Origin: Candidatus Sysuiplasma superficiale
Lineage (GTDB): Archaea; Thermoplasmatota; Thermoplasmata; Sysuiplasmatales; Sysuiplasmataceae
Assembly: GCA_019720975.1 (NCBI GenBank)
Contig: JAGVSJ010000002.1
Span: forward strand, 1 to 64,000
Length of the DNA: 64,000 bases
Reading direction: 5' to 3'
The position numbers were made by a program, and so were the translations under genes. The notes under the pieces are model-generated. The model saw only the letters and a program-made list of their open reading frames with translations, had not been told where the DNA came from and did not search any database. How positions within the stretch are numbered: the first letter of the stretch is position 1; each line of letters starts with the position of its first letter. Below, one piece after another: positions 56,483 to 61,172 of this stretch.

Positions 56483-57067
56483 CTACTTCACGAATTCGCC
56501 GCAGGAAACGCAGACTACAGATTTTCTGCTTATCATTGCACCGCAGCTGCTGCACCTGATGAGTGACGAATCATCCGCCATCCCTGCTGTGCCGCCAGCC
56601 GCGGGCTGAGTTGTGGCCTTCTGATTTCTGCCTATCCTTTCAATCTTCATCGATGAAAGCTTGATTCTGATCCTGTCGGAATCGGCCTCCCTTATCATCG
56701 GAACAGATTTGATGCTTTCAACACCCCTCAGCCCGGCTGCTGCAGGGGTTTCGTTCCTCCCTGCGTCGTATGAACCGATGTCATGTGTGACGGACACGGC
56801 TGTCTGCCTGGGTGCGGACCTGAGGCCAGGCTGTTCATTCCTTTCCTCTCTTTCCGGGGTTGCTGTGCCGCGCAGTTCCTCATCAGGGTCAAGAAGTACC
56901 ACTTCCCTCCTGAATTTGCTCATTTCATTCCTGTCCATTTCCCTGTCAAGTTCCATCCTCAGCACCTTAATCGCACTCTGGATATCAGAGAAACTGTCCT
57001 TGATCTCGGCATTCTTCCCTATCTCTTCAAGTAGTTTAATTGCCCTGGCGTACTCTGCCGTAAGCAT
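56483..57067 (-). CDS. helical protein with C-terminal zinc ribbon
   Basis: 194 residues from ATG 57067 (AAGGAGGTTGAC upstream). The first 60 residues are predicted helical coiled coil (AIKLLEEIGKNAEIKDSFSDIQSAIKVLRMELDREMDR), the middle is polar and disordered, and the end is a zinc ribbon (IRCSSCGAMISRKSVVCVSCGEFVK). The frame is open further upstream, and GGGTGGTCAG followed by CTG at 57124 gives an alternative start adding 19 helical residues (ELDIRSAAFTLRKEVD). The family is not recognised. It lies between polC and nog1 on the same strand. Confidence 0.75.
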   Translation of the reverse strand: MLTAEYARAIKLLEEIGKNAEIKDSFSDIQSAIKVLRMELDREMDRNEMSKFRREVVLLDPDEELRGTATPEREERNEQPGLRSAPRQTAVSVTHDIGSYDAGRNETPAAAGLRGVESIKSVPMIREADSDRIRIKLSSMKIERIGRNQKATTQPAAGGTAGMADDSSLIRCSSCGAMISRKSVVCVSCGEFVK

Positions 57068-58237: not shown

Positions 58238-58942
58238 ATGCGCAAATACGGCAGGAGCAGCAACTTTTCGCTTGAACCGCATTTCGATATGCTCTACAGG
58301 GGCCACCTTCTTTTCACCGAGGAGGAATACTGCAGGATGCAGCGGGAGGGACGTGCAGGGGGAGACAGTAAGGTCATGGCACGCATAGACCGCCGCTTCC
58401 TGCGGCTTATGGGCCGCCATGCCTTCACAAGGCTGACTGACGGAAGACAGGCATTCACGGAGGAGCTCAGAAACACAATTTCAATTTACGAAAACAAGGT
58501 GCATCTCTCAAGGGAACAGCTGATACACAGATGGAAGAGCCCGAGTGTTGCAGCCGACTCTCTCATGATTCACAGGGGCAGACTGCTGCTCGTAAGGCGC
58601 GGACATGAGCCGTATCGCGGCTTCTATGCCCTGCCAGGAGGCATAATGGATGACGACGAGACGCTCGAGGAATGCGCCATACGGGAACTTTTCGAGGAGA
58701 CGGGAATAAAGGGAAAGGTGAGGCAGCTTCTCACTGTTCTGAGCGATCCTGAAAGGGATCCGCGTGTGAGGATGGTCAGCGCAGTTTACCTTGTTGATTT
58801 CGTCGGAGGCAGACTAAAAGCAGGAGATGATGCATCCTCGGCGGCCTTCTTTCCTCTGGATTCCATTCCGCCCCTTGCCTTTGACCACGGTCAGGTTGTC
58901 TCACGCTATATCAGGGAGGCTGTGCTCACACAGCCGGAATGA
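58238..58942 (+). CDS. Nudix hydrolase with a long N-terminal extension
   Basis: 234 residues. The Nudix box GGIMDDDETLEECAIRELFEETGI (G-x5-E-x7-REx-x-EE-x-G) is complete. The Nudix domain begins near residue 105 (VAADSLMIHRGRLLLVRRGHEPYRGFYALPGG), so about 100 residues, mostly basic helix (RRFLRLMGRHAFTRLTDGRQAFTEELRNTISIYEN), precede it. Such domains hydrolyse nucleoside diphosphate derivatives; ADP-ribose or NADH pyrophosphatases often have similar loops. The substrate is unproven. The 3' end overlaps the convergent zinc-ribbon gene by 17 nt. Confidence 0.88.
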   Translation: MRKYGRSSNFSLEPHFDMLYRGHLLFTEEEYCRMQREGRAGGDSKVMARIDRRFLRLMGRHAFTRLTDGRQAFTEELRNTISIYENKVHLSREQLIHRWKSPSVAADSLMIHRGRLLLVRRGHEPYRGFYALPGGIMDDDETLEECAIRELFEETGIKGKVRQLLTVLSDPERDPRVRMVSAVYLVDFVGGRLKAGDDASSAAFFPLDSIPPLAFDHGQVVSRYIREAVLTQPE

Positions 58943-59504
58943 GTTCGCTGTCTGAACGGTAGAATGGAAGAAAGACCATCTTCTCGTGAGATGGCTCCAC
59001 CCGGAAACCGTTCAGCAGGTCCTCTCTTCTCCCCTCAGACGTTTCAGCCGCCAGGAAGTAGTATTCGACCTCGCTTCTCGCGTCGCTGCTTGTCCTGCAG
59101 CACTTCAGATGTTCGACATCGTTGAACGAAAACGTAGTGGAATAAACAGGGTTGTAGGCAGTCATCCGCGCGCCTATGGTAAGCGCCTCACCCTGGCCGA
59201 GCTCTGCGGCAGGCACATATACGAACATCCTGCCGCCATTTCCTTCTTTTATGAATTCTCTGAGGTTTTTGTGCACTGTCTCATCGCTGCTGGGCAGATC
59301 GAATGTGCTGAAAAATCTCCAGAAAGGGATGTACACCCTTCTTCCTTCCTTCACGCTGCTGAATTTGGCTATCTCAACATCAACCACAGACTTTTCGCCT
59401 ATTTCGTGCAAACTTTTGCAGGATGAACAGTAGGCGAGTATCTCCCCCTTCTCAACCTTTGTGCTCTTGCCGCACCTGGGGCATCTCTCAGCCACCGGGT
59501 TCAT
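58926..59504 (-). CDS. zinc-ribbon protein, third gene of an uncharacterised operon
   Basis: 192 residues. An N-terminal zinc ribbon (RCPRCGKSTKVEKGEILAYCSSCK) precedes a domain with two repeats of an aromatic strand pattern, VYIPFWRFF and VFLPFYRSD, similar to elements in the other two proteins of the operon (VYPAWIV; FYPFWIT). It lacks the C-terminal membrane helices of those proteins. Start and stop of neighbouring genes overlap (ATGA). I do not recognise the family; the shared architecture suggests that the three gene products form one assembly (inference). Confidence 0.75.
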   Translation of the reverse strand: MNPVAERCPRCGKSTKVEKGEILAYCSSCKSLHEIGEKSVVDVEIAKFSSVKEGRRVYIPFWRFFSTFDLPSSDETVHKNLREFIKEGNGGRMFVYVPAAELGQGEALTIGARMTAYNPVYSTTFSFNDVEHLKCCRTSSDARSEVEYYFLAAETSEGRREDLLNGFRVEPSHEKMVFLPFYRSDSELIPAV

Positions 59505-60409
59505 ACTGTCACCTTCCTTGGGCGGGTTGCATAGCTGTGCCTTGGCGCCCTCAGTGCATGTCTCAGGCCGTTTACCACAAGAAAGACGGCTGCGCCTGAG
59601 GTCAGGAGCCCCAGACCCGGACCGTGTAAACCGCCGAATGAGATGAGCATTGCGCCAGCCGCTGTAACGCCGGCGCAGGAAGTCGCTATGAGTGTATCCA
59701 CAAACGTGTCTTCATTCCCTTTCTGTATTTCCGGATCGTTCATCGGTTCGCCATTGATACCATCGAGTGTCAGGGCATGTTCACCCCTTTTTGTGCGGAA
59801 TCTCACAATCCATGCCGGATAGACGACAAGAGTCTGGTTGATTACAGTGACTGAGGTCTTTCCTCTCCCCTCATGCGGCCCGTAAGTCGAATCCAGCTCC
59901 TCAGCAAGCATATCTCTGGCCTTCCTTTCAACATCCACCGGCTTGATTGACAGGGGGAGCGAAGGGAAATACCTTTCAGGCGATATCAGCGCATCCGAAC
60001 CGCTGACAATGACAGGCTGTCCTATGTACTGGACATTATCATAGGCAGGTATCCTGTATCTTCTGACAAGCTCTACCGGGCGCACCTCCTCCCCTCCCTT
60101 CCCCCCGGATATTATCCATCCGGATGCTCTCGCCGTTATGTTCCATATCGGAAGGTAAACGGGAAATGTCTCCACTATCTCGAAATAGTTCGGCCTTCTT
60201 CCAGGAAGAAGGCGGTGTTCTATTATTCCGGCAGCCCTTGTATGGACAATGTCCTCCGGCACGCCGAATGAATAGGTGAGAATGTACGAGCCGGAGCTGT
60301 CTCTGGGAAGCCTGAACGCAGTGCCGCAACTGGGACAGGTGGTTACAGGCTCAAATTCGTCGAAATACACAGGCGAACCGCATTCCACGCATCCGCTCTT
60401 TGAAAGCAA
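59501..60409 (-). CDS. zinc-ribbon membrane protein, second gene of the uncharacterised operon
   Basis: 302 residues. N-terminal zinc ribbon (CVECGSPVYFDEFEPVTTCPSCG), then a soluble region with two copies of a beta pattern: FPVYLPIWNITARASGWIIS...RPVELV and VVYPAWIVRFRTKRGEHALTLDGINGE. The second copy resembles PepSY-like repeats, by impression. Two helices (LIATSCAGVTAAGAMLISFGG and GLGLLTSGAAVFLVVNGL) and a basic tail end the protein. The zinc ribbon should be cytoplasmic. Same strand, 1 nt after the first gene; overlaps the third by 4 nt. Confidence 0.75.
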   Translation of the reverse strand: MLSKSGCVECGSPVYFDEFEPVTTCPSCGTAFRLPRDSSGSYILTYSFGVPEDIVHTRAAGIIEHRLLPGRRPNYFEIVETFPVYLPIWNITARASGWIISGGKGGEEVRPVELVRRYRIPAYDNVQYIGQPVIVSGSDALISPERYFPSLPLSIKPVDVERKARDMLAEELDSTYGPHEGRGKTSVTVINQTLVVYPAWIVRFRTKRGEHALTLDGINGEPMNDPEIQKGNEDTFVDTLIATSCAGVTAAGAMLISFGGLHGPGLGLLTSGAAVFLVVNGLRHALRAPRHSYATRPRKVTV

Positions 60410-60410
60410 A

Positions 60411-61172
60411 TCACTCCCTCCTCTTCAGTGAATATGCAATAAATAGGACAGCTGATGCAGCAACCGCAATTACGCCGTAGAGCGCACCGATATAGGCAAG
60501 GAACCCACTCGCAGATATTATGACAAAGCCCGCCGCCATGAGGGGAAGCTGGCTCTTTCTTTCCACCTCAACGCTCAGGTCTCCCGATACCTTCCCGTTG
60601 GTCGCATCCACTGTCACCGTGTTGAGCCTGCCGCGGTACAGGTACTGCGTTATCCAGAACGGATAGAAGATGAGTTTTCTCGAAGATGGTTCAACCGAAA
60701 TTATGGCGGAGTATGCAGATGGCATGGTGGTCGGAAACAGGAAGTTCTCTCTGCCTGTTTCGTTTGTCACGGCCTTCAGTACACAGCCTTCAAGGTCAAT
60801 CATCCGGATCCCGGGTTGCGCTGACGGGAAACCTGCCGCAACCCTGACCAGCGGATTGCCATTCCTGTCCTTTTCAAATATGAATGTGGGATAGTACTTG
60901 AGGCTCATCTTTGCAAATTCAATATTCCTTGAGAACTCTCTGCCGCCCTTTACACCGGAAGCCCAGACATGTATGGCAGACATTGCATCTTCTTCGCTCA
61001 ATCCGGCCTCCTTGTAGTATGGTATCACTGAACCCACACCGTCATAGATGAAAACACAATGACAGTGCTGGCACTCTCTCCAGTCAGTGTCGATTTCGTC
61101 ATTTTGCGGCGCCTCGCATGAAGGGCATTTTACCACAGTCATGTTTGCATCAACTTCCGATTTTTCCGGCAT
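60411..61172 (-). CDS. zinc-ribbon membrane protein, first gene of the uncharacterised operon
   Basis: 253 residues. N-terminal zinc ribbon (KCPSCEAPQNDEIDTDWRECQHCHC), then YYPTFIFEKDRNGNPLVRVAAGF, then FYPFWITQYLYRGRLNTVTVDATNGKVSGDL, the same strand pattern as in the second gene, then two C-terminal helices (MAAGFVIISASGFLAYIGALYGVIAVAASAVLFIAYSL). A GAAATTTAAATAATC box about 60 nt upstream may be the promoter. The protein family is unknown to me; its relation to the two downstream proteins is visible by eye. Confidence 0.75.
   Translation of the reverse strand: MPEKSEVDANMTVVKCPSCEAPQNDEIDTDWRECQHCHCVFIYDGVGSVIPYYKEAGLSEEDAMSAIHVWASGVKGGREFSRNIEFAKMSLKYYPTFIFEKDRNGNPLVRVAAGFPSAQPGIRMIDLEGCVLKAVTNETGRENFLFPTTMPSAYSAIISVEPSSRKLIFYPFWITQYLYRGRLNTVTVDATNGKVSGDLSVEVERKSQLPLMAAGFVIISASGFLAYIGALYGVIAVAASAVLFIAYSLKRRE

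Follow-up and report, generated by a model that had tools for sequence, protein, structure and literature searches.

Three adjacent genes of Candidatus Sysuiplasma superficiale, named A, B and C here, probably encode the YdjG-like components of a PspA-free archaeal SPFH scaffold module, in which their products would anchor the SPFH protein to the membrane and the YdjG-like subunits appear to have multiplied to three. The genes lie in a 64,000-nucleotide stretch of contig JAGVSJ010000002.1 (the window), for which an earlier note had stated that no described system matches the trio. This statement no longer holds, as the trio block is part of an SPFH (YdjI-like) operon and A and B are homologous to SPFH-linked YdjG-type proteins. 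From sequence, we infer that the three products plausibly assemble into one membrane complex. Pairs of SPFH and YdjG-type proteins span many bacterial phyla and the Thermoplasmata, and since the latter carry the pair without PspA, the core is separable from PspA and its own role can be tested in archaea.

Gene layout and zinc ribbons

The trio is encoded on the minus strand and comprises the following features.

60411..61172, minus strand: gene A, 253 aa; C4 zinc ribbon, YdjG-like body and C-terminal two-helix hairpin
59501..60409, minus strand: gene B, 302 aa, TTG start; C4 zinc ribbon, YdjG-like body and C-terminal two-helix hairpin
58926..59504, minus strand: gene C, 192 aa; C4 zinc ribbon and a shortened relative of the A/B body, without membrane helix
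61230..61242, minus strand: TATA-box-like AAATTTAAATAAT upstream of A, spotted by eye
61062..61127, minus strand: zinc ribbon of A, CPSC...CQHC, residues 16-37; cysteines conserved in orthologues
60326..60391, minus strand: zinc ribbon of B, CVEC...CPSC, residues 7-28; cysteines invariant in 28 orthologues
59418..59483, minus strand: zinc ribbon of C, CPRC...CSSC, residues 8-29; cysteines invariant in the orthologue alignment

The tight coupling described earlier is borne out by a gap of 1 nt between A and B and an overlap of 4 nt (ATGA) between B and C, and AAATTTAAATAAT is, from inspection by eye, a candidate promoter of the trio. Because the orthologues of A begin at the residue equivalent to its Met11 in the orthologue alignment, translation more likely starts at the ATG at 61142, which would give a protein of 243 aa. 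Each product has the two-CxxC ribbon at its N-terminus (CxxC-14-CxxC in A, B and C), as had been noted, and the four cysteines are kept in the orthologues, with a less regular alignment at the second cysteine pair in two C proteins (loci L024 and L025). For the closest pair of genomes used (G005 and G006), dN/dS was 0.125 for A, 0.113 for B and 0.094 for C, and at values of 0.09-0.13 all three are therefore real genes under purifying selection. Elsewhere in the window, a 194-aa protein (56483-57067) with a C-terminal zinc-ribbon-like CSSC...CVSC is encoded next to a GTPase gene, and a similar gene is also found near the trio in relatives.

Kinship among the three products

Since the ribbon alone yields spurious similarity, it was removed before profiles built from 28 orthologues each of A, B and C were compared; iterated profile searches that included the ribbon were judged untrustworthy and were repeated without it. 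In these ribbon-free hhalign comparisons, A matched B at 98.8% (E 1e-16; reversed control 0.02) and B matched C at 94.2% (E 1e-7), the latter alignment being colinear across both aromatic strands, while A and C gave no significant match. Reversed-profile controls of the A/B/C comparisons gave E-values of 0.014 or worse. The kinship proposed earlier for the three products is thus clear between A and B and significant between B and C. In a tree built from the bodies, each of A, B, C and a fourth paralogue, D, forms a single clade. By their profiles, A and B are clearly paralogues and C is a shortened relative.

Membrane hairpins and predicted structures

The two membrane features of the trio are:

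60435..60548, minus strand: C-terminal membrane hairpin of A, residues 209-246 (Kyte-Doolittle)
59552..59713, minus strand: C-terminal membrane hairpin of B, residues 233-286 (AlphaFold2 helices 233-259 and 264-286; one clear hydropathy peak)

Paired terminal helices had been attributed to two of the products, and we recover them as two hydropathy peaks in A and, in B, as a single clear peak, with a further helix seen in the model. Neither hydropathy nor the model gives a membrane helix in C, which is predicted to be soluble. In the AlphaFold2 model of B (pLDDT 77, pTM 0.63), a helix leads into a long beta hairpin, this unit occurs twice, and two helices end the chain; C was modelled with pLDDT 86 and pTM 0.84. 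Foldseek searches with both models found no significant solved relative in the PDB, and a search with C against viral structures gave no significant match.

Conservation and gene order in Thermoplasmata

Of 400 genomes of the class Thermoplasmata, 64 carry B (full-length or long partial) and 63 carry C. The two occur together in 63 of the 64 B-bearing genomes and every genome with C has B; in the single genome with B only (G003), B is truncated by the contig end. Of 62 B-C pairs on one contig and strand, 58 are at most 116 bp apart. The earlier note had proposed checking whether the trio is kept as a block in other archaea, and these figures indicate that it is. In three genomes (G020, G122 and G128) the spacing is 6.4 kb, and in G020 (L024:8057-14392, contig C10) the gap holds a gene whose 2111-aa product is a subtilase containing Big, glucodextranase-B and PKD (Ig/PKD) domains.

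In eight families other than that of the window (f1), 24 loci were inspected, and in 23 of them the trio adjoins an SPFH gene and a gene for a coiled-coil protein. Twenty of these loci read coil-SPFH-A-B-C, with two clipped by a contig edge, and the other three read A-B-C-coil-SPFH. The SPFH protein of these clusters is YdjI-like, matching Band_7_1 (PF13421) at E 1e-35 to 1e-38 and carrying double zinc ribbons at its C-terminus, a feature also reported for YdjI. The only named family near the coil protein (approximately 176 aa) is NCBIfam LIMLP_15305, to which it is distantly related (E 1e-5 to 1e-12, under the family cut-off) and for which a literature search gave no function. At the level of genomes, SPFH is present in 61/64 trio genomes vs 269/336 others; because SPFH is common, this enrichment is only modest.

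A split operon in the family of the window

In the window's own family the trio is separated from its SPFH scaffold gene, the operon being split. Within the window neither an SPFH nor a coil gene stands beside the trio; in the same genome, a coil-SPFH-D cluster is located on another contig (G000:C30), which is why the earlier note could not see the SPFH link. The fourth paralogue D has two ribbons and no membrane helix, and the SPFH protein of this genome likewise has no membrane segment. D was read directly beside SPFH in G004, and secondary matches place it there also in G005, G006 and G007. The trio neighbourhood common to the relatives includes Nudix, GTPase and ADH genes, named by eye from sequence. 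Since the scaffold locus of this family has its own paralogue D, A, B and C would either serve that scaffold in trans or hold a specialised role.

A different reading of the split, which we regard as unlikely though worth weighing, is that A, B and C of this family were freed from the SPFH module, which is now served by D, and form a zinc-ribbon membrane complex of their own with a new role. It would fit the split itself, with D beside SPFH, as well as the long branches of the family in the body tree (1.2 for A and 1.59 for B) and its neighbouring genes, which include polyprenyl diphosphate synthase- and geranylgeranyl reductase-like genes by eye. However, purifying selection acts on all three genes, which remain complete and side by side, every genome of the family that was searched retains SPFH, and action in trans accounts for the same facts. 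The genes resembling those two enzymes of archaeal lipid synthesis were seen near the trio at L018:200-2390, L019:9926-12081 and in other relatives of the family.

YdjG-type proteins of bacteria

The membership of the trio in an SPFH module as its YdjG-like part is further suggested by family E, bacterial and archaeal proteins of approximately 370 aa with two ribbons, a body and a C-terminal transmembrane segment. Family E was defined by its gene neighbours and is linked to B. subtilis YdjG through gene content and published descriptions. Without ribbons, hhalign matched A to family E at 98.1% (E 1e-13) and B at 98.7% (E 3e-16), with reversed controls at 0.03-0.1; C reached 18% against the family E body and connects only via B. 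Whole-protein HMMs that include the ribbon scored 52.6 bits (A) and 58.8 bits (B) against the YdjG-like protein of Enterococcus. None of the reported Pfam or NCBIfam models covers the body domain shared by A, B and family E, and several family E proteins lie above the cut-off of PF08271, in agreement with the TF_Zn_Ribbon match published for YdjG (PMC9239133). Of the features of YdjG-type proteins, the N-terminal C4 zinc ribbon is shared by A, B and C, and the C-terminal membrane segment by A and B and not by C.

We assembled 61 family E loci, 58 from a genome scan and three from plasmids that were picked with an SPFH neighbour already known. An SPFH gene is near the family E gene in 45 of the 61 (strict HMM), on the same strand in all cases and within 300 bp in 31, and a TPM gene is near it in 28; TPM joins the neighbourhood in Firmicutes. 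Enterococcus gallinarum has genes for SPFH, the family E protein and TPM in this order, which corresponds in gene content to ydjI, ydjG and ydjH. Pairs of an SPFH protein and a "TFIIB-type zinc ribbon-containing protein" from diverse bacteria and archaea (Comamonas WP_224153175.1 and WP_224153207.1; also G030 and G028) resemble the archaeal arrangement in having a homologous body, with SPFH immediately upstream; they differ in that one protein of approximately 370 aa carries two ribbons, as in family E generally, whereas the trio consists of three proteins with one ribbon each.

Comparison with known membrane systems and proposed role

To our knowledge, what is known experimentally of the YdjG/YdjI partnership comes from one bacterium. 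In B. subtilis, YdjG and YdjH are required for the recruitment of YdjI, itself soluble and without a membrane segment, and of PspA to the membrane (PMC8581546), and in YdjG a pair of zinc ribbons is joined to a YpeB-related domain and a transmembrane segment (PMC11237479). The archaeal set resembles pspA-ydjGHI in that an SPFH protein with C-terminal zinc ribbons is encoded alongside a YdjG-type protein with ribbon, body and transmembrane segment. It differs in lacking PspA and TPM (YdjH), a coiled-coil protein being found instead, in having three single-ribbon YdjG-like subunits, one of them without membrane helix, and, in the family of the window, in having SPFH on a separate contig. PspA (PF04012) was found in 0/41 genomes of relatives, while nine positive-control genomes gave matches, and TPM/YdjH (PF04536) is absent from the genome of the window and present in 3/41 overall. 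The archaeal module must therefore do without both, and the bacterial mechanism cannot be transferred whole. The trio falls outside the pspA-ydjGHI operon in the strict sense.

In the proposed module, A and B would be inserted into the membrane via their C-terminal hairpins, with the ribbon and body in the cytoplasm and the tails, which are positively charged, on the inner side. A and B, along with soluble C, may recruit and organise the SPFH and coiled-coil proteins on the inner face of the membrane, and the outcome could be membrane upkeep or repair under stress, by analogy with the recruitment of YdjI by YdjG and YdjH in B. subtilis. More tentatively, and with lower probability than the module itself, the Thermoplasmata might possess a PspA-independent machine for membrane maintenance, built from an SPFH scaffold, a dedicated coil protein that takes the place of PspA by forming the membrane-acting polymer, and three specialised YdjG-like zinc-ribbon subunits joined in a hetero-oligomer, whose body would adopt a fold with no solved counterpart.

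Archaeal ESCRT systems (PMC10936438) likewise include SPFH proteins that bear coiled-coil and zinc-ribbon parts, in a context of membrane remodelling. In contrast to those systems, no Snf7-type ESCRT-III was found in the genome of the window and none was seen beside the trio operon; ESCRT-III was thus set aside as a partner, with a model that is weak even in Sulfolobus.

Ribbon and PepSY similarities

The ribbons of the trio proteins resemble those of TFIIB, S27e and RNA polymerase P at weak E-values. Searches of Pfam, NCBIfam and PADLOC with A, B and C gave generic ribbon matches or none, a PDB sequence search gave ribbon matches only, and a first scan of genome contigs with B confirmed no relatives. 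The ribbon likenesses, together with the DNA-binding ribbon proposed for YdjG (PMC9239133), could point to membrane-tethered transcription or nucleic-acid factors with TFIIB/RPB-type ribbons. We consider this improbable: the ribbon likeness is generic, the remainder of the proteins is a conserved beta-rich body in which no DNA-binding domain was found, and the partner is SPFH.

Beyond the ribbons, the earlier note had quoted aromatic motifs and a TxDxxxG turn resembling PepSY repeats. The aromatic motifs are present (FYPFW in A, VYPAW in B and VYIPFW in C), but that of C aligns with VYLPIW of B, in the first aromatic strand, and not with VYPAW. The turn was found in both of the products concerned (TVDATNG in A and TLDGING in B), at these positions:

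60579..60614, minus strand: terminal beta-turn of A, VTVDATNGKVSG, equivalent to bacterial xxNGQTGxVxG (hhalign alignment)
59750..59770, minus strand: terminal beta-turn of B, TLDGING (hhalign alignment)

PF03413 recurs as a weak match, hit by 11 of the 28 orthologues of B (best E 4.4e-4) and by 4 of the 28 of A, and the trio proteins share with PepSY a beta-hairpin with a DGxxG turn; for the window proteins themselves the match is absent at E<=1, leaving all three short of the gathering threshold. This weak but recurrent signal agrees with the published description of the YdjG body as YpeB-related (PMC11237479). That A, B and C are PepSY-type protease inhibitors or chaperones without a tie to SPFH function, as the recurring matches might suggest, nevertheless seems very improbable, given how weak these matches are, the lack of a PepSY or YpeB structure among the listed PDB fold matches, and the fact that no signal peptide or linked peptidase gene was noticed. 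A defence system, to which a multi-gene module of unknown kind with membrane helices might belong, is scarcely credible, as PADLOC gave no match for A, B, C, D or the coil protein and, for SPFH, nothing beyond a ribbon-level match, and the block is chromosomal and conserved across whole families.

Further genes at related loci

Outside the Thermoplasmata, a Culexmicrobium locus (L122:3399-6895) holds a coil gene, an SPFH gene and then two tandem YdjG-like genes, a second case of a duplicated partner. Several Firmicutes loci have an extra gene between SPFH and the YdjG-like gene; in L123 (3857-4888) it encodes a DUF4428 zinc protein, which might be one more partner, and second genes occupy similar positions in L088, L090, L093, L110, L116, L118 and L119.
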